Assembly: GCA_021774965.1 (NCBI GenBank) | Contig: JAJFIL010000206.1 | Location: 1 to 39,218 of the forward strand | Origin: Alphaproteobacteria bacterium | GTDB taxonomy: Bacteria; Pseudomonadota; Alphaproteobacteria; JAJFIK01 | Direction: 5' to 3' | DNA length: 39,218 bases | Shown here: piece after piece, positions 743 through 15,339 of the stretch | How positions within the stretch are numbered: the first letter of the stretch is position 1 | Layout of the letters: each line of letters opens with the position of its first letter | Translations under genes and position numbers: made by a program | The notes under the pieces: generated by a model | What the model was told of the DNA's origin: nothing | The model's database searches: none | What the model saw: the letters and a program-made list of their open reading frames with translations, nothing else

Positions 743-1573
743 TTACTGGAAGAGCGAGAGGATCGATTGTGGTTGCTGGTTCGCAATCGACAAGGCCTGG
801 ATGCCCAGTTGTTGTTTCACCTGCAAACTTTGTAATCGAGCGCTTTCAACGGCCAGGTCTGCATCCACCAGATTACCAATACCGGCGGTGAACTGATCTT
901 GCAGTTTACCCAGGAAGCTGTTGTGCGCTTCGAGCTGTTTACCCATGGAGCCAAGGCGCGCCAGAGCGGCATTCACATTGGTCAAGCTGGTGTTGATCTG
1001 CGCCAAGGCGACGGATGCAGTCGCCTTCGTGGAAACTGTTGTTCCCGCGCTCATGGTAATAATGGAGCCGCCCAGCGACATGCTTTCCGTCCCCACCGTC
1101 AACGTGTTGGAGGCATCGGCATCGGCCAGCACTGTCAGGCCATTGGTCAACGAGCCATTGATCAGGTTCGCGCCATCAAAGCCGGCATTGGTGGTGATCG
1201 TGTTGATCTGCCGCAGCAGAGCCTGGAAATCTTCATTGATCGCGTTGCGTGATGCCGTATCCAGTGAGGCATCATTGGCCGCTACGGTGCGTTCCTTCAT
1301 TTCCACCAGAAGGTCGGAAATGGTTTCGCCAGCCGCCAGAGCTACATCGGTGATGCTGCTGGCGCGGGAGACACTTTGCATAACAGCATTCAAGGCCCCC
1401 ACATCGCCGCGCATGTTTTGCGCAATGGCGTAGACGGACGAATTGTCCTTGGCCCCGCCCACTTTGAGGCCCGTGTTGATCCGGTTCTGAACAACATTCA
1501 TATCCATGTTGGTCTTGGTCAGATTCTGCAGTGCCAGCATCGCTGACTTGTTGGTGTTGACGCTCATTGACAT
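743..1573 (-). CDS. Flagellin (filament subunit), paralog 1
   Basis: A 276-residue short flagellin exported through the flagellar type III system to build the filament. The N-terminal D0/D1 region shows the family signature (ALQNLTKTN near residue 15, then NRINTGLKVGGAKDN). The C-terminal helix has NLVDADLAVESARLQSLQ and ends in SILSLFQ. The central part is short, giving the compact type usual in alphaproteobacteria. The start at 1573 follows GAAGGAG with 7-base spacing; an upstream in-frame ATG extends the frame only through non-homologous sequence. A near-perfect sigma-54 promoter at 1649-1663 precedes it and a terminator follows. Its leader and central sequence differ from paralogs 2 and 3. 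Confidence 0.96.
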   Translation of the reverse strand: MSMSVNTNKSAMLALQNLTKTNMDMNVVQNRINTGLKVGGAKDNSSVYAIAQNMRGDVGALNAVMQSVSRASSITDVALAAGETISDLLVEMKERTVAANDASLDTASRNAINEDFQALLRQINTITTNAGFDGANLINGSLTNGLTVLADADASNTLTVGTESMSLGGSIITMSAGTTVSTKATASVALAQINTSLTNVNAALARLGSMGKQLEAHNSFLGKLQDQFTAGIGNLVDADLAVESARLQSLQVKQQLGIQALSIANQQPQSILSLFQ

Positions 1574-1648
1574 GGCTTGTCTCCTTCTTCGCCCTTCTAG
1601 GCACGCCCCACTTTCGCCGGGGCGCAAATTGCGTTCAGAGCTATAAAG

Positions 1649-1663
1649 GCAAGCCGCGTGCCA
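1649..1663 (-). promoter_or_regulatory. Sigma-54 promoter of flagellin 1
   Basis: The minus strand reads TGGCACGCGGCTTGC, an exact fit to the -24/-12 consensus TGGCACG-N4-TTGC, with ten bases between GG and GC. The transcript would start near 1637 and have a leader of about 65 bases. That leader contains a hairpin at 1604-1624 (CGCCCC/GGGGCG, 9-base loop), a possible target for leader-binding regulators such as FlbT. Confidence 0.88.
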
Positions 1664-1789
1664 ACTATTTACACGTCATAATGCATTGATTTAATTGGTA
1701 TTTTTTGCTCACACGGAACGCAGATGTCGGATGTTGCAGGGCAAGGCTGGCCTAGGACGGGGACATTTTTGCCCAGTGGAATAACGCCC

Positions 1790-3154
1790 CTAGAACAAGG
1801 AGAGCACACCCGCGCGCGCATCGGTCGCAATGGCGATGCCCTGCATGCCAAGCTGCTGGCGCACCTCCAGCGATTGGGCGAGGGCTGCGTCCATGGCAAG
1901 GTCCGCATCCACCAGATTGCCGATACCAACCTGGAAGGTTTCCCCCAGTGCGCCGAGAAAAACTGAATGCATCTCCAGTCGTTTGGAAGCGCTACCCAGA
2001 CTGGCACTCAGTAGCTCCACTTGATCAAGATAGGTTCGAATTGCCGATAGAGTATCTTTGTCGATGATAAGAGCCGACGAGGAAACTGCTGCGCCGGAGG
2101 CGCTGGTATTTGATGACGTAACCGGTGTTGTTCCCGAAGGCGCACTTCCGGCGGATGGTGCTGGATCAGTCACAATAGGCGTGGGTGACGGTGATGACAC
2201 GGGCACCGGTTCCGGCGCAGGCGCTGAGACTGGCGCCGGTACTGGTGCCGACACTGTCGCGGTCAAAAGAGTTGAAAGCACGGGCCGCACGGGATCAGCC
2301 AATTCAATTGCCGTAACAACATTGTCAGCCACCTTTTTGTCATGGCCTTTTGCCTTACCCGGATTGTCCCGCCCATCCGGCTTATCGGGTCTATCAGGTC
2401 TATCAGGCTTGTCCGGTCTATCCGGCCTGTCAGGTCGACCAGGCCTGCCGCCACCTTGAGGAGGCGTATCTGCAGGCGGCGCAGGCGTTGGTGTCGGTGC
2501 TGGATCAGGCGCAGGCGCCGGTGCTGGTGTGGGTGTCGGTGCGGGATCCGGCGCTGGTGCAGGATCTGGCACGGGCGTAGGTGCGGGCGAAGATACAGGC
2601 GGCGGCGCGGGAGCGAGGACGGGGGCTGGGTCAGGGTGGAATGATTTCTTAAGCCCTGAGAAATCCCGGCCCTTAACAGAGATCTCTGCAGACTTGTGGC
2701 TACCGCCTCGGACCTTCAGGCCCTCCGGTCGGCTGCCATCAAGCAGGTTCACACCATCAAAGCTGGCACTGGCGACAATTTCATCGGCCTCGTCCAGCAG
2801 GCCGGCAAAATCTTGGATCAGGGCCGCGCGGGAGCTTTCATCGAGGGAGCCATCAATGGCGGCCAGCGCTCGCTCTTTTAATTCAATCAGCACATCTGCG
2901 ATGGCTTCGCTTGCGGCAAGGGAGACGTCAGTGATGCTGATTGCGCGGACAAGGCTTTGCTCCACAGACATGACCGTAGAGCGATCATCCCGAAGCCGTT
3001 GAGCCATGGTGAAAGAGACCGGGTCATCTTTTGCGCCCGCCACACGCAGACCGGTAGAAATTCGCTTTTGAACGACAAATAGATCCCGGGCGGCCTGCGC
3101 AGTAATTTGCGCAGCCGATCCGGTTCCTCTGCCAAGAGAAAACGCATCTGGCAT
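1790..3154 (-). CDS. Flagellin-like protein with a long proline-rich central insert
   Basis: A 454-residue protein with flagellin ends and an unusual middle. Residues 15-165 match the D0/D1 N-terminal region (KRISTGLRVAGAKDDP, then ITDVSLAASEAIADVLIELKERAL in outline). Residues 370-454 match the C-terminal D1/D0 (GNLVDADLAMDAALAQSLEV, ending AGVLSLF). Between them lie a Pro-Ala tract (174-230), an R/K-P-D repeat tract (237-260) and a second Pro/Ala/Ser/Thr tract (302-345), all predicted to be disordered. The extreme N-terminus lacks the usual MxxVNTN start, and the Shine-Dalgarno is weak, so the start is uncertain. No clear sigma-54 promoter was seen. It may be a minor filament subunit, a surface-exposed adhesive flagellin, or a hook-filament-type structural protein. 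Confidence 0.85.
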   Translation of the reverse strand: MPDAFSLGRGTGSAAQITAQAARDLFVVQKRISTGLRVAGAKDDPVSFTMAQRLRDDRSTVMSVEQSLVRAISITDVSLAASEAIADVLIELKERALAAIDGSLDESSRAALIQDFAGLLDEADEIVASASFDGVNLLDGSRPEGLKVRGGSHKSAEISVKGRDFSGLKKSFHPDPAPVLAPAPPPVSSPAPTPVPDPAPAPDPAPTPTPAPAPAPDPAPTPTPAPPADTPPQGGGRPGRPDRPDRPDKPDRPDRPDKPDGRDNPGKAKGHDKKVADNVVTAIELADPVRPVLSTLLTATVSAPVPAPVSAPAPEPVPVSSPSPTPIVTDPAPSAGSAPSGTTPVTSSNTSASGAAVSSSALIIDKDTLSAIRTYLDQVELLSASLGSASKRLEMHSVFLGALGETFQVGIGNLVDADLAMDAALAQSLEVRQQLGMQGIAIATDARAGVLSLF

Positions 3155-3243
3155 CGACAGTTACTTTACCCCACCCGGTTACGCGCGCCTCCCAACATTC
3201 CAACCAAAGGCAGCGCACCCCCTGGTTTCGTCACCGATACTTT

Positions 3244-3281
3244 AAAAAAGTCACGGCCGAGGGCGGCGCCCCCCGGCCGTG
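3244..3281 (-). terminator. Terminator after flaG
   Basis: On the minus strand CACGGCCG pairs with CGGCCGTG around a GC-rich inner stem, followed by ACTTTTTT. It lies 23 bases past the flaG stop and separates flaG from the proline-rich flagellin gene. Confidence 0.85.
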
Positions 3282-3303
3282 AAATGGTAGTCGTGAACTG
3301 AAC

Positions 3304-3687
3304 TCAAGCTCGACGGTCCACCATAATTCCTTCCATAACTCGAAGAAACCGTATCGAACGTAGTAGCTGTTCCGCGGGGTACTGTTTCATAACTTCCCCC
3401 GTGTCGTTGTGGACGGTTTCATAAACATATCGGCCAGAGACTTTGTCCTCGCTAATTCGCAAGTGGGCGTTATCCACCCCAGCCTGGCTTAAAATTTCAT
3501 CCTGCAATTCCGACAAGGCAGCAAGCCGTCGGCCTTCGCGATCTTTATCTTTTTTGGTCTCTGCCTCTTCTCTCGAGACAGGTACGTCCCTATCCTGGGT
3601 CGTGGCTTCCACGCCCTGGCGGTGCTCAACGCTTGCCACTTTGGCAACTGCGTTGGGAACGGTAGTATTTGATACCGGTTCCACCAT
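3304..3687 (-). CDS. flaG: FlaG family flagellar protein
   Basis: A 127-residue protein. Residues 1-55 are polar and variable. Residues 75-120 carry the FlaG pattern: LRISEDKVSGRYVYE followed by DTGEVMKQYPAEQLL, matching the family's conserved 'D...GEVIRQIP' segment. FlaG proteins affect filament length or assembly in several bacteria, though the mechanism is not well defined. It sits between two flagellin genes on the same strand, which supports the call. The best AAGGAGG-like sequence is about 24 bases upstream of the ATG, too far to act normally, and no alternative in-frame start lies nearer. Start assignment is therefore less certain than the identity. Confidence 0.85.
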   Translation of the reverse strand: MVEPVSNTTVPNAVAKVASVEHRQGVEATTQDRDVPVSREEAETKKDKDREGRRLAALSELQDEILSQAGVDNAHLRISEDKVSGRYVYETVHNDTGEVMKQYPAEQLLRSIRFLRVMEGIMVDRRA

Positions 3688-3784
3688 AATCTCAAATCCC
3701 GGCTCAGGGACCCTCCTTTCAAGTTCGCCGCATCTCCATTGGTCGCTGGTGCATTTTCGGCTGCAATATTTCTAAGCTGCGGTC

Positions 3785-3810
3785 GGTGGAGCGGAAATTT
3801 CCGCCCCACC
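3785..3810 (-). promoter_or_regulatory. Hairpin between flagellin 2 and flaG
   Basis: A 10-bp stem (GGTGGGGCGG / CCGCTCCACC on the minus strand, one G-U pair) with loop AAATTT, 15 bases past the flagellin stop. No T-run follows, so it could be a weak terminator or an mRNA-protecting 3' hairpin that allows read-through into flaG. Confidence 0.5.
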
Positions 3811-3825
3811 AAACCAAGGCAGTTC

Positions 3826-4647
3826 TTAGAACAAGGACAGGAAGATCTGCGGTGCAGAGTTCGCAATCCCAAGGGCCTGAACACCCAATTGCTGCTTAAC
3901 CTGCAAGGACTGCAATTTCGCGCTTTCTGCGGCGAGATCGGCGTCCACGAGGTTACCAATACCAGCAGTCAGAGCATCGCTCAATTTGCCGACAAAGCTC
4001 TCGTGCAGTTCAAGCTTCTTGGAGCCAACACCAAGACGAGCCAGAGCTTCGTTGACGTTTTCCAGTGACGTGGTGATGGTCGCAACAGCCGTCGAAGCTT
4101 TTGCAGCCGTATCAACAGTTGCCGTGCTGGCAAGGGTCACAACCGAACCACTCAGCGACATATTTTCCGCAGACACGGTGATAAAGCTTGAGTTGTCCAC
4201 ATCGGCCAGAGCCTGAATGTTGGCGGTTGAACCATCGACCAGGTTGATGCCGTTAAACTCAGCATTGCTGACGATTGTTGAAAGCTGATCGCGAAGAGCT
4301 GTGAAGTCTTCGTTCATGGCATCGCGGCTTGCGGTATCAAGCGAACCATCAGCGGCACCGAGCGCCTTTTCCTTCATTTCGATCAAAAGATCGGAAATAC
4401 CTTCGGCTGCTGCAATGGCAACATCGTTGGTGGAGCTGGCACGGCTCAATGACTGGCTAACAGCATTGAAGCCCGCGACATCGGCACGCATGTTTTGGGC
4501 AATAGCGAAGACAGCGCCATTGTCCTTAGCAGATCCGACTTTCAAACCCGTAGAAATACGGTTCTGAGTAACGCCGATCTGATCATTTGTTCTGGTGAGG
4601 TTTTGAAGGGCGATCATCGCGCCCTGATTCGTATTGACTGTGGCCAT
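3826..4647 (-). CDS. Flagellin, paralog 2
   Basis: A 273-residue flagellin starting MATVNTNQGAMIALQNL, with NRISTGLKVGSAKDN near residue 30 and a C-terminus with GNLVDADLAAESAKLQSLQV and FLSLF. It is very similar along its whole length to paralog 3 (4983-5807), including the central 'SFITVSAENMSLSGSVVTLAS' type segment, which points to a local duplication. The ATG at 4647 follows GGAG. A sigma-54 promoter (4717-4731) and a leader with two A-loop hairpins (4676-4705) precede it. It is expected to be exported unfolded and to polymerise in the filament, probably after glycosylation by the TPR glycosyltransferase at 6989. Confidence 0.96.
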   Translation of the reverse strand: MATVNTNQGAMIALQNLTRTNDQIGVTQNRISTGLKVGSAKDNGAVFAIAQNMRADVAGFNAVSQSLSRASSTNDVAIAAAEGISDLLIEMKEKALGAADGSLDTASRDAMNEDFTALRDQLSTIVSNAEFNGINLVDGSTANIQALADVDNSSFITVSAENMSLSGSVVTLASTATVDTAAKASTAVATITTSLENVNEALARLGVGSKKLELHESFVGKLSDALTAGIGNLVDADLAAESAKLQSLQVKQQLGVQALGIANSAPQIFLSLF

Positions 4648-4675
4648 TTCTTGGACTCCATTCTGGTTTTACAAC

Positions 4676-4705
4676 GAGCGTTTTGCTCTATGGGCGTTTT
4701 GCCCA
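4676..4705 (-). promoter_or_regulatory. Paired A-loop hairpins in flagellin 2 leader
   Basis: In the mRNA, UGGGC-AAAAC-GCCCA is followed by a 2-base linker and GAGC-AAAAC-GCUC. Both stems lie between the sigma-54 promoter and the ribosome-binding site. The same arrangement, with different stem bases, occurs in the leader of flagellin 3. Confidence 0.7.
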
Positions 4706-4716
4706 CGGGAAACACT

Positions 4717-4731
4717 GCAATGTGCAAGCCA
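4717..4731 (-). promoter_or_regulatory. Sigma-54 promoter of flagellin 2
   Basis: The minus strand reads TGGCTTGCACATTGC: GG and GC are separated by exactly ten bases with TGGC and TTGC intact. The transcript would begin near 4705 and include the two leader hairpins. Confidence 0.85.
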
Positions 4732-4850
4732 GACTGAATGTCGAATTTTTGATTAACCAACTAAACTCAAGAATACTGGGAAAAAATTGCTGGTCAGAAT
4801 TTTCCTGGTAACAAATGGCCCGGCAGAAAGTTCCGCGTCTAGGTCAAAAC

Positions 4851-4890
4851 ACTAGGCATTTTCTTCCGGGTACGGAGTTTTTTGCCTAGT
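4851..4890. promoter_or_regulatory. Inverted repeat upstream of flagellin 2 promoter
   Basis: Perfect 8-bp arms ACTAGGCA / TGCCTAGT with a 24-base spacer containing TCCG..CGGA. It lies about 120-160 bases upstream of the sigma-54 element, where an activator of sigma-54 promoters would bind. It could alternatively be a transcript hairpin. Confidence 0.4.
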
Positions 4891-4936
4891 TACATACTTT
4901 CCAAATCCTTAAACGGTTTCCAACCCGTTAAAGAGG

Positions 4937-4972
4937 AAAAGTGAAGGTGGAGCCAAATACGCGGCTCCACCT
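4937..4972 (-). terminator. Terminator after flagellin 3
   Basis: A perfect 10-bp stem (AGGTGGAGCC / GGCTCCACCT) with an 8-base loop begins 10 bases past the stop. The following T-run is short and interrupted (TTCACTTTT), so termination may be partial. Confidence 0.7.
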
Positions 4973-4982
4973 CCAATATGGC

Positions 4983-5807
4983 TTATCCGAAGAGGGACAA
5001 GAACATTTGCGGTGCGGCATTTGCGATCCCCAATGCCTGCACGCCAAGCTGCTGCTTGACCTGCAAGGATTGCAGCCTCGCACTTTCCGCGGCAAGATCC
5101 GCATCCACCAGGTTGCCGATACCAGCAACAAGAGCATCGCTCAATTTGCTGATAAAGCTCTGGTGAAGTTCCAGTTTCTTCGAGCTTGTGCCCATCCGTG
5201 CAAGGGCCTCGTTGGCATTTTCCAATGAGGTCGTGATCGTTGCAACGGCTGTGGAAGCCTTCGCTGCGGTGTCAATTGTGGCCGTACTTGCAAGGGTCAC
5301 AACAGATCCGCTCAGCGACATGTTTTCCGCAGACACGGTGATAAAGCTCGTATTATCGGCATCTGCCAGGGCCTGAATATTAACGGTCGAACCATCCACC
5401 AGGTTGATCCCGTTAAAGGCCGCATTGGAATACATGGTGGAGATCTGATCGCGCAGAGCGACAAAATCTTCATTCATTGCATTCCGACTGGCAGTATCGA
5501 GAGAAGCGTCAGCCGCGCCGAGCGCCTTTTCCTTCATCTCAATCAGAAGATCAGAAATACCTTCAGCAGCAGCAATAGACACATCGACCGTGCTCAAGGC
5601 ACGACCAAGCGATTGACCAACTGCGTTAAAAGAAGCCACTTCCGCTCTCATATTCTGTGCAATGGCGAAAACTGCGCCATTGTCCTTTGCCGATCCCACT
5701 TTCAGCCCAGTGCTGATGCGGTTCTGAACCATCCCAATTTCGCTGTTCGTCTTGGTCAAGTTCTGAAGCGCGATCATTGCGCCAGGATTCGTGTTTACTG
5801 TAGCCAT
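4983..5807 (-). CDS. Flagellin, paralog 3
   Basis: A 274-residue flagellin starting MATVNTNPGAMIALQNL. It has the D0/D1 signatures NRISTGLKVGSAKDN and, at the C-terminus, GNLVDADLAAESARLQSLQV ending FLSLFG. It is nearly collinear with paralog 2 and differs mainly by scattered substitutions. ATG at 5807 follows AAGGA with 9-base spacing. It is the flagellin closest to flaF and flbT. A sigma-54 promoter (5879-5893), a leader with two hairpins (5837-5864) and a downstream stem-loop indicate a monocistronic, separately regulated transcript. Confidence 0.96.
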   Translation of the reverse strand: MATVNTNPGAMIALQNLTKTNSEIGMVQNRISTGLKVGSAKDNGAVFAIAQNMRAEVASFNAVGQSLGRALSTVDVSIAAAEGISDLLIEMKEKALGAADASLDTASRNAMNEDFVALRDQISTMYSNAAFNGINLVDGSTVNIQALADADNTSFITVSAENMSLSGSVVTLASTATIDTAAKASTAVATITTSLENANEALARMGTSSKKLELHQSFISKLSDALVAGIGNLVDADLAAESARLQSLQVKQQLGVQALGIANAAPQMFLSLFG

Positions 5808-13060: not shown

Positions 13061-13160
13061 CCCCTCACCCGGCGCGGCGCGCCACCCTCTCCCCCAGGAG
13101 AGGGTTATTGGCAGTCACTCTTTTTCTCCCTCTCCCTCGGGAGAGGGCTGGGGTGAGGGG
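13061..13160. repeat. Palindromic repeat unit with nested hairpins
   Basis: Perfect outer arms CCCCTCACCC (13061-13070) and GGGTGAGGGG (13151-13160) enclose two internal hairpins, 13085-13104 and 13128-13147, both built on CCCTCT...AGAGGG. The form is like a cruciform-prone intergenic repeat. The 3' end of the DUF559 gene lies inside the right half. Confidence 0.8.
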
Positions 13161-13510
13161 TGGGCCTCAATTAAGACAATCTGAATTTGAGACAACACAC
13201 CTTCCAGGTTTTCCAAAACTTCATTGTTCCAGAAGCGAATAACGCGAAACCCCTTCCCTTCAAGGTACCTCGTTCGGTGTGCATCCGTCTTTGAATCGGC
13301 ATGCTGCCCACCATCTAATTCAATGATCAGTCGAGCCTCCCAACATGCAAAGTCTGTAATATAGGGGCCGACGGGAAACTGCCTGCGAAACTTCGCGCCG
13401 CTTAGTTGATTTGCCCTAAGTACCTTCCACAGTTTCTTTTCTGCTTCCGTCGTGTCGCGCCGAAGCCGTCTCGCTTGTTGTGTCGTTCCTTTTCTTTTTG
13501 CGCCTGGCAT
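13115..13510 (-). CDS. DUF559 endonuclease-like protein
   Basis: A 131-residue protein of the DUF559 family, related to very-short-patch-repair (Vsr) nucleases with a restriction-endonuclease-like fold. Visible marks are the N-terminal LRRDTTEAEKKLWKVLRANQ, then KFRRQFPVGPYITDFACW and IIELDGGQH, and RVIRFWNNEVLEN. The Asp of TDF and the ELDGGQH residues are the likely catalytic set. Start at 13510 follows GAGGGGGA; an upstream ATG at 13525 is less well placed. The last 16 residues (HPSPQPSPEGEGEKE region) are encoded by the palindromic repeat. The gene begins 11 bases after the stop of an imuA-like remnant and may use the SOS promoter at 13745-13784. Confidence 0.85.
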   Translation of the reverse strand: MPGAKRKGTTQQARRLRRDTTEAEKKLWKVLRANQLSGAKFRRQFPVGPYITDFACWEARLIIELDGGQHADSKTDAHRTRYLEGKGFRVIRFWNNEVLENLEGVLSQIQIVLIEAHPSPQPSPEGEGEKE

Positions 13511-13521
13511 TCTATTCCCCC

Positions 13522-13743
13522 TCAATGAAAATCGCGGGAGCGCAACATCGGGCTTAGGAAGCTGGTGGCGGCGGGAGTATCACGGGGGTCTTTGGGGAGG
13601 ACCTCATGAAGCGCATTTGCGATAATCCCGCCGCCGGGCAAGTGACCATCCACCTCGTAGGGACCAAGGGGGATGGATTGCCGTCCGGGCGTCACGGTCT
13701 GAGGTGGGGACCCCAGAACCGAGCCGGAGAGCCCGGATAAGGA
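13522..13743 (-). pseudogene. Truncated imuA-like remnant behind an SOS promoter
   Basis: An open frame of 73 codons without ATG runs from the SOS box to TGA at 13522. Its product contains VDGHLPGGGIIANALHEV and DTPAATSFL, which closely resemble the N-terminal part of ImuA (pattern 'LDAxLPGGGLxxGALHEV...AATGF'), a RecA-like protein of the SOS mutasome with ImuB and DnaE2. An intact ImuA is over 200 residues; here the similarity stops at about residue 62 and the frame ends soon after. Only a poorly placed GTG (13695) could start it. No imuB or dnaE2 is seen. I infer an imuA gene truncated when the DUF559/repeat segment arrived. Confidence 0.65.
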
Positions 13744-13744
13744 T

Positions 13745-13784
13745 GTTCTTGTTTTGTTCTAATTCTTGAAGCAGGAAAAGTCAA
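13745..13784 (-). promoter_or_regulatory. LexA-type SOS box with overlapping promoter
   Basis: GTTC (13745-13748), seven bases, GTTC (13756-13759) is the alphaproteobacterial LexA operator. On the minus strand a -35 TTGACT (13779-13784), 17-base spacer and -10 TAGAAC (13756-13761) overlap it, so LexA would block the promoter. Transcription would go left through the imuA remnant into the DUF559 gene. Bases 13785-13892 hold no other feature that I can see. Confidence 0.8.
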
Positions 13785-13892: not shown

Positions 13893-14663
13893 CTAGCCGA
13901 CCTCTTCGCTTTCCTCAGGGGCCATTTCGACAGCCTGGGACGCGCCGCAGTCGTGAAGCTTTGCAACATAATCAGCAATAGCCAATTGAAGCGCACGCTG
14001 CCCGGCATATCTTGTCATTGCCTCAGAAGTGCCAGCAGGGGCCACACCTTGGCCATAGGCCGTAACGCGACCTGCATTTATCGCGACATTGTTTCGCGCA
14101 GCTGTAGTCAGTTCCGCTGTTATGAGATTACTGGCATCTACCCCTACAAAGGCAAAGGCAACACCAGCAACAATCGCATAGGCCCGGCGACCATCGCCCG
14201 TCCGATGCGGCGAGAGGGCTTCAAACTCAGCAACACCTGAAGAGGTAAGACAGGCGCTAAACTCATCTGTCTCAGAAAGTTCGTTCAGCGTCTCAAATTG
14301 AACCTCAGCCAAAACCCTTCTGCCGCCGTCCGTGGGAGAGATTTGAAATCCCATTGCATTTGCTGTCAGCCCATACCGCGCCGCCGATGCATCAGCCGCC
14401 AGGTATCCATGATTGCGAAGCGATTTCGAAACGCCCTCTGAAAAGCTCTCCTGGGCAAGTATACCGTCCGTGCCCATCTGTTCGGCAACGCCCACCTGCA
14501 ATTCAGCATCCTGTATCCACAAAGCCTCAGATAAACCCGTGCCCGAAGCCGTGGGGAGGCCATGCCGCCCACTGACAGTCATCAGATCCGCAGTAAGAGG
14601 TTCGGGTGGGATAGTCGAGCAAGCACCCAAAAACACAAACAGAAATAATAGGAAATACCGCAT
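13893..14663 (-). CDS. Predicted lipoprotein of unknown function
   Basis: A 256-residue protein. MRYFLLFLFVFLGAC is a lipoprotein signal with lipobox LGAC, so it is probably anchored by a lipidated Cys near residue 15. The rest is mixed, with a hydrophobic Ala/Val stretch (AIVAGVAFAFVGV) and an Ala-rich helical end. I do not recognise the family. The start is given as ATG 14663, which has AGG eight bases before it; GTG 14672 would add three residues. It starts 9 bases after the stop of a second lipoprotein gene, forming a two-gene unit. Confidence 0.8.
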   Translation of the reverse strand: MRYFLLFLFVFLGACSTIPPEPLTADLMTVSGRHGLPTASGTGLSEALWIQDAELQVGVAEQMGTDGILAQESFSEGVSKSLRNHGYLAADASAARYGLTANAMGFQISPTDGGRRVLAEVQFETLNELSETDEFSACLTSSGVAEFEALSPHRTGDGRRAYAIVAGVAFAFVGVDASNLITAELTTAARNNVAINAGRVTAYGQGVAPAGTSEAMTRYAGQRALQLAIADYVAKLHDCGASQAVEMAPEESEEVG

Positions 14664-14672
14664 TGCTCGCAC

Positions 14673-15266
14673 CTATTGGCGATCAAAATTTCGGCGCAAC
14701 TTCTCTGCGAAGTCATTTGCCATTATACCTTCAATGTCTGGTTGGATAATCGACTGAGCAATCGCACCGATGATCCCGGCATTGGACGCATAATTCCCTG
14801 TCGCGCTATAGACGCCCAGAACAGTGTCATCAGAAAGACGGACAACACTCACCGAGGCACTCACCCCATTCGATCCACCGATTATGTTTCCAAACGCTGC
14901 GCCAACTCGATGATAGGTCGCAACATCCACATCAAAGCGAACGGCCTCTGATCCCGATGGGGAATTGCGAAATTCTTCACTGACACGAGCCTGAAGGAGT
15001 TCTATCAAGGTTGCTTTGCCAGCTGCGTAATCCTCATTTGAGGCCGCCTTGGCTTCATCATCCACTGACCAGCTGACCTCAACAGAGTCAACATAAACAC
15101 CATACCGAGTATCGCTAGACAAAGGATTAGGCGTGGTCGTGGTACAACCCGCAACCAAGAGAAGGCTCAGGCCAATGCCCATCGCCCTCACTACGGATTT
15201 TGCCCAGGAAAGAACCCCCAACGGACGGACGAATGAACGGTCTGTACCAACCACATGAGTGTCCAT
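14673..15266 (-). CDS. Predicted lipoprotein of unknown function, first of a pair
   Basis: A 197-residue protein. Signal region with LLLVAGC lipobox near residue 40 follows a longer basic N-terminus (VVRAMGIGLSLLLVAGC), so lipidation is likely. The mature part has YGVYVDSVEVSW near its start and a region with repeated S/V/G, DDTVLGVYSATGNYA, ending in IIQPDIEGIMANDFAEKLRR. This pattern of a short lipoprotein that counts secondary beta strands recalls GNA1162/CsgG-neighbour lipoproteins but the resemblance is weak. Start 15266 follows AAGGAGAGG; upstream ATGs are poorer. It is expressed with the lipoprotein gene at 13893. Confidence 0.8.
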   Translation of the reverse strand: MDTHVVGTDRSFVRPLGVLSWAKSVVRAMGIGLSLLLVAGCTTTTPNPLSSDTRYGVYVDSVEVSWSVDDEAKAASNEDYAAGKATLIELLQARVSEEFRNSPSGSEAVRFDVDVATYHRVGAAFGNIIGGSNGVSASVSVVRLSDDTVLGVYSATGNYASNAGIIGAIAQSIIQPDIEGIMANDFAEKLRRNFDRQ

Positions 15267-15339
15267 AGTGCTTACCTCTCCTTGCATACTCAATTTTTGA
15301 TTGAGTGGAAGTGATCAAAAAATTTCCATGTGTGTCAAT

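Follow-up and report, generated by a model that had tools for sequence, protein, structure and literature searches.

A DUF559 nuclease bracketed by triplex-motif repeats, a candidate mobile unit, behind the conserved SOS promoter of a decayed imuA gene

The window analysed here is a 39,218-nucleotide stretch of an alphaproteobacterial genome (contig JAJFIL010000206.1 of assembly GCA_021774965.1). Along its minus strand, a LexA (SOS) box overlapping a -35/-10 promoter leads into a start-less remnant of imuA with a weak terminator-like stem at its end and, 11 bases after the TGA of the remnant, the ATG (13510) of an intact DUF559 nuclease gene. G-rich motifs of the BoxC/PIT triplex type lie at the ends of this gene (Table 1). 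The genome of the window (G000) was compared with those of two congeners (G001 and G002), giving three species of the genus.

Table 1. Features of the promoter, imuA relic, nuclease gene and repeats in the window
Feature	Position	Strand	Evidence
-35 hexamer TTGACT of the relic imuA promoter	13779..13784	-	same hexamer in all three species (G000, G001, G002), each time with 17 bp to the -10
-10 hexamer TAGAAC, overlapping the LexA box	13756..13761	-	identical in the three species
LexA (SOS) box GAAC-N7-GAAC (GTTC-N7-GTTC on the plus strand)	13745..13759	-	15/15 in G001, 14/15 in G002; uvrA/ssb and dnaE1 have boxes of this type
imuA remnant, a 73-codon frame that lacks a start codon and covers roughly a quarter of ImuA	13525..13743	-	E = 7.5e-7 to G003 ImuA; G001 and G002 share the relic
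Weak terminator-like stem at the relic end, between promoter and DUF559	13531..13546	-	1 found, 1.0 expected by chance
TGAGGGGG, probably what truncation has left of the 5' triplex motif	13517..13524	-	sequence; DUF559 relatives have a hairpin, GGGTGAGGGG and ATG here
DUF559 (Vsr-fold PD-(D/E)XK) nuclease, 131 aa, family-invariant residues intact	13115..13510	-	PF04480 E = 1.1e-42; model pLDDT 87
3' triplex motif CCCTCTCCC-TC-GGGAGAGGG-CT-GGGGTGAGGGG, inverted relative to the gene, overlapping the DUF559 3' end	13128..13160	+	sequence
Second triplex-type motif, opposite orientation, CCCTCTCC-loop-GGAGAGGG-second stem-GGGTGAGGGG	13061..13104	-	sequence

Results

A predicted LexA-controlled promoter is shared by three species

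The exact pattern GTTC-N7-GTTC occurs once in the window, where 1.09 occurrences are expected by chance; taken alone the box is at chance level, and its significance comes from three further tests. On the minus strand the box shares bases with TTGACT-N17-TAGAAC (hexamers at 13784-13779 and 13761-13756), a composite of which about 1e-5 are expected per window. Both congeners have this composite at the matching syntenic place, again with 17 bp between the hexamers, upstream of the imuA relic and between a VWA (CoxE-like) gene and a cupin gene. When the alignment is anchored on the promoter, both hexamers are identical (6/6) in all pairs of the three species, and the rest of the LexA box agrees with the window at 11/11 and 10/11 positions in the congeners. 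The spacer keeps its length at an identity of 5-9/17 among the three species (5/17 for the congeners against the window), and the surroundings are near random identity (6-13/40 in the 40 bp upstream and 11-15/35 in the 35 bp downstream).

The sub-motif GTTCNNNNTTTGTTC has 8 copies in the window's own genome, compared with 1 for a reversed control, and its sites include the uvrA-ssb intergenic region and the region upstream of dnaE1. The dnaE1 gene, encoding the replicative DNA polymerase, has a LexA-type box upstream in both G000 (C283) and G002 (C95).

The box is of the alphaproteobacterial LexA type and overlaps a promoter, and this predicted LexA-controlled promoter is kept in the three species of the genus although imuA is dead. 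The genes that come after it in G001 and G002 lie on the opposite strand, with no codirectional gene close by. In the window, DUF559 is the first codirectional gene, and the conserved SOS promoter is the nearest codirectional promoter identified. In the window the SOS box is separated from the cupin gene by two lipoprotein-like genes (13893-15293, minus strand), which are not at this place in the two congeners.

The imuA gene decayed before the nuclease arrived

The imuA remnant is a stop-to-stop frame without an ATG, closed by a TGA at 13524-13522. It has no match in Pfam or NCBIfam, so its identity rests on genome comparison. Intact ImuA proteins were retrieved from relatives, and the best of them, from G003 (locus L004), matched the remnant when compared with the window's genome (39% identity over 67 residues; E-value in Table 1). 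This ImuA is genuine, having an IMS-family (ImuB-type) protein and DnaE2 next on the same contig, and the similarity is therefore to the ImuA of an imuA-imuB-dnaE2 locus. The remnant retains neither a start codon nor the C-terminal part of the protein. The original prediction, made from the DNA letters, had proposed an SOS promoter, a 73-residue frame resembling the start of ImuA and a Vsr-like DUF559 gene 11 bases further on. All three are supported, the third as an intact, codirectional gene of Vsr fold.

ImuB and DnaE2, sought elsewhere in the window's genome, were found neither there nor in G001 or G002, the only matches being a replicative-type DnaE and a DinB-type IMS protein; the assembled sequences indicate that the imuA-imuB-dnaE2 mutasome is gone from the three genus members compared. 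The locus resembles that of the ImuA-ImuB-DnaE2 SOS mutasome in promoter type and in the first quarter of imuA, and differs in holding a start-less fragment only, in a genus that appears to have neither ImuB nor DnaE2.

All three relics end in TTTCAYTGAG, the very point at which the nuclease unit starts in the window. DUF559 was found in neither G001 nor G002. Because these DUF559-free congeners carry the same relic with the same junction, the truncation of imuA predates the nuclease.

A small nuclease with a Vsr-type fold

The nuclease scores 144.8 bits against PF04480 (gathering cut-off 20.6), and Glu24, Asp53, Glu64, Asp66, His70 and Trp94 are shared without exception by the 102 relatives compared, among them the window copy. 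The best fold match to the structure model is 3HRL, and the second, which covers the catalytic-domain fold, is the homing endonuclease I-Bth0305I (3R3P, EDxHD; E 1.3e-5, TM-score 0.78 by target). Vsr itself (1VSR) ranks 11th and shares a similar fold only, the NCBIfam model of the Vsr family (TIGR00632) giving 14.9 bits against a cut-off of 97.85. The modelled DUF559 fold thus resembles that of the Vsr-like EDxHD enzyme I-Bth0305I, whereas DUF559 is a short single domain that is bracketed by palindromes and has no intron or intein location. Its closest relatives, at 45-62% identity, are scattered among the Alpha-, Beta-, Gamma- and Deltaproteobacteria, Omnitrophota, Chloroflexi, Spirochaetes and others. 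A phage origin was considered and rejected, with only 5 distant phage records.

Triplex motifs bracket DUF559 genes across bacteria

The motif at the 3' end of the window's gene has the hairpin followed by a mirror third strand that characterizes BoxC/PIT, a reading based on sequence and on the family-wide third-strand comparison given below. Relatives show a recurrent layout, in which CCCTCTCC-loop-GGAGAGGG is followed by xGGGTGAGGGG and then by the ATG, and a further copy of this unit, in inverted orientation, covers the gene's 3' end. What appears to be left of the 5' motif in the window lies 6 nt before the ATG and could act as a Shine-Dalgarno sequence (the upstream sequence being GAGGGGG). 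With its 5' motif cut back in this way, the unit in the window may no longer move, but its nuclease is intact. The window's own genome holds 11 copies of the core motif pattern, and the DUF559-free congeners hold 0. The original prediction had the nuclease arriving together with a repeat segment, and this part of it stands, the repeats being BoxC/PIT triplex motifs at DUF559 gene ends.

Under a fixed rule, a motif-like hairpin was found within 150 bp of DUF559 upstream at 75, downstream at 82 and on both sides at 63 of 109 loci, counts that are partly non-independent because many of the loci are orthologous between relatives, and biased in that 80 named loci were retrieved with a query that included the repeat-encoded C-terminus. 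The 63 doubly flanked genes lie between inverted, dispersed palindromes; in the window the 5' copy is truncated. Random placements gave 13, 9 and 0 of 1447 (upstream, downstream and both), and the neighbouring genes at these loci, counted from 120 residues upwards, gave 15, 8 and 0 of 290. Among the 29 loci retrieved with the Pfam model, which are free of the query bias, 16 have a hairpin upstream, 17 downstream and 24 at least one.

The two features also co-occur at the level of genomes. Across 289 genomes of the class, the motif is present in 44 of 71 with a strong DUF559 match versus 15 of 218 others (odds ratio 22, p = 9e-21, a value that is optimistic because the genomes are related), and the excess persists within four genome-size strata. 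The exact motif pattern is missing from 27 of the 71 DUF559-positive genomes, partly owing to variant motifs, and 15 motif-positive genomes have no strong DUF559 match. The third strand mirrors the hairpin arm at 8/8 positions in 55 of 75 upstream motifs; such a full match arises in 14% of comparisons with the tail of another locus and in 2% with shuffled tails. Escherichia coli K-12 carries the DUF559 gene ycjD, with a motif copy about 150 bp past its 3' end, and the last codons of ycjD run into a degraded motif.

The triplex motif itself is already known; its link to DUF559 appears to be new. Holder et al. (2015) described the BoxC/PIT/triplex motif in more than 260 genomes and reported no transposase or integrase remnants near the E. 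coli copies (PMC4666352). The 3' motif in the window (layout CCCTCTCCC, GGGAGAGGG, GGGGTGAGGGG) resembles theirs in being G-rich and dispersed and in combining a hairpin with a mirror third strand, but here such motifs bracket one specific gene family. We found no DUF559-repeat link in the literature on DUF559 or BoxC/PIT repeats open to readers without subscription; no title in the DUF559 literature searched concerns palindromes, and the RepRanger survey of REP sequences is silent on nucleases.

Copies of the unit point to movement as a block, at times into essential genes

Two copies in a Spirochaetes metagenome-assembled genome (MAG; loci L065 and L089) are 91% identical, with the identity confined to the unit, which has an outer inverted repeat; the flanks differ. 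The pair has a dN/dS of 0.07, and the protein has therefore been under purifying selection between these copies. Four Omnitrophota loci (L051, L053, L079 and L095) show the same behaviour.

In three Rickettsiales MAGs (L064, L077 and L091) the DUF559 unit lies in frame, at a similar place, inside the editing region of isoleucyl-tRNA synthetase (IleRS). For L091, comparison with a homologue of solved structure puts the insert between the equivalents of its positions 248 and 277, approximately. Assembly error is possible for any single MAG and unlikely for the three IleRS cases. The IleRS of L077 also holds an inserted GNAT acetyltransferase domain. In another MAG, PriA (L093:4476-7238) has two in-frame inserts, one a DUF559 unit and the other a motif pair that lacks the nuclease, and DUF559 fusions were found before RimM and TilS. 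In Rickettsia palindromic elements, too, palindromic DNA interrupts protein genes without breaking the reading frame; the DUF559 insert differs in carrying a nuclease gene and in occurring across many phyla.

In E. coli, ycjD and its triplex motif are polymorphic, with at least 80% of the locus present in 3363 of 5426 genomes (~62%). Four other E. coli genomes that were inspected have an efflux-pump cluster beside fabI, followed as far as sapF in one of them (L171; the K-12 order is fabI-ycjD-sapF). A clean empty site at ycjD was accordingly rejected, these alternatives forming no simple empty/filled pair.

Discussion

The window probably consists of a decayed imuA head with a conserved LexA promoter, behind which a mobile, REP-like unit of triplex motifs and DUF559 has landed. 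The mutasome would have been lost before the three species diverged, with its LexA-controlled promoter retained, and the unit would have arrived later, directly behind the relic, where most of its 5' motif is now missing. We propose that the nuclease cuts DNA, at a target site or at the folded motif, and that host repair machinery then copies the unit elsewhere; copies consisting of the motif only would be non-autonomous, passive derivatives. The unit seems rarely, if ever, to bring an SOS box of its own, and its expression would be set by the landing site, here a damage-inducible promoter.

Expression of the nuclease from the relic SOS promoter is plausible, if slightly short of an even chance. 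An SOS-induced DUF559 protein would not in itself be new, since Caulobacter VsrA (CCNA_02930), which has a DUF559 domain, is SOS-induced (PMC12907096). Both proteins are alphaproteobacterial and share this domain, but the LexA box of VsrA lies inside the gene and the one described here lies in the upstream relic imuA promoter.

The most durable competing explanation, which we consider unlikely though deserving of real weight, holds that the promoter serves a small structured RNA derived from the relic, or the divergent cupin gene, that the transcript ends before DUF559 and that the nuclease is not SOS-regulated. A promoter conserved despite a dead imuA, without a close codirectional gene in G001 or G002, fits either version, as does the terminator-like stem between promoter and DUF559. 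In G000 the relic RNA (window 13526-13749, minus strand) folds better than any of 200 shuffled sequences (z -4.15), and the G001 relic also beats its shuffles (z -2.05), as against z -0.34 in G002; a GGCGGCGGG/CCCGCCGCC stem is found in all three species, but the covariation term is unfavourable (+2.34, from three sequences only) and Rfam yields no match. A conserved small RNA, folding well in one species, was therefore rejected as a candidate in its own right and is kept only within this alternative. The cupin version draws on G001, where the box lies about 100 bp from the cupin start, and loses ground in G000, where the two lipoprotein-like genes intervene.

We regard as improbable the idea that the window's DUF559 has been domesticated for SOS repair, as an enzyme like VsrA that is kept to mend mismatches or breaks when the SOS response is on, with the repeats incidental. 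The VsrA precedent (PMC12907096), the conserved SOS promoter upstream and the intact invariant residues agree with it, but a domesticated enzyme sits poorly with the absence of DUF559 from both congeners and with a motif association that is family-wide and far above that of neighbouring genes. Nor are SOS boxes enriched at other DUF559 genes: a LexA-type box lies near 1 of 109 other loci, about the chance level, so that an SOS link is no family-wide trait, and SOS boxes as a general DUF559 feature were rejected.

A gene-end effect without any mobile unit, in which DUF559 genes tolerate or attract G-rich terminator hairpins, is highly improbable. Similar hairpins of Enterobacter sp. 638 were interpreted as terminators at gene 3' ends (PMC2869309), but the DUF559 motifs also lie upstream, inverted, and overlap the gene's own coding end; they travel with the gene, reaching unrelated sites and entering essential genes in frame, they are lacking at the other genes of these loci, and the block-wise copies largely contradict this explanation. 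Weakest of all is the course of events in the original prediction, in which imuA was still intact when insertion of the DUF559/repeat segment cut it short and its promoter was captured: order and orientation agree, the gene begins 11 bases past the remnant and such units do insert within genes elsewhere, but the same truncated imuA with the same junction and no mutasome in two DUF559-free congeners already contradicts it.

The mobile-unit reading of the window leads to a broader proposal, in which DUF559 is a candidate mobilizer of BoxC/PIT triplex-motif repeats. On this proposal, which we offer tentatively and with the balance still somewhat against it, DUF559 would be the missing BoxC/PIT mobilizer, the repeats would form a REP-like family with a homing-endonuclease-like enzyme instead of a transposase and with in-frame insertion into essential genes, and in the window the SOS promoter would couple this activity to DNA damage. 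REP/RAYT (TnpA-REP) systems offer a close parallel, having a small gene between inverted, dispersed palindromes and many gene-less palindromes elsewhere (PMC2817692, PMC8266576). Unlike RAYTs, which are Y1 HUH enzymes, the window protein is a DUF559 nuclease of the Vsr-type PD-(D/E)XK fold, and its repeat is the triplex motif.

Triplex repeats of the BoxC/PIT type are found in hundreds of bacterial genomes, where they mark sites of instability, and the searchable literature names no enzyme that spreads them. With one small nuclease family bracketed by such repeats in many phyla, the question becomes open to direct tests, for which ycjD offers a way in E. coli as well, and if the proposal is true a second nuclease class would join the REP/RAYT way of life. 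Locally, the window suggests that a mobile nuclease can end up under the conserved SOS promoter of a dead mutagenesis operon. Elsewhere in the window, at 743-5807 on the minus strand, lie four tandem flagellin-like genes, one of them with a long proline-rich insert.
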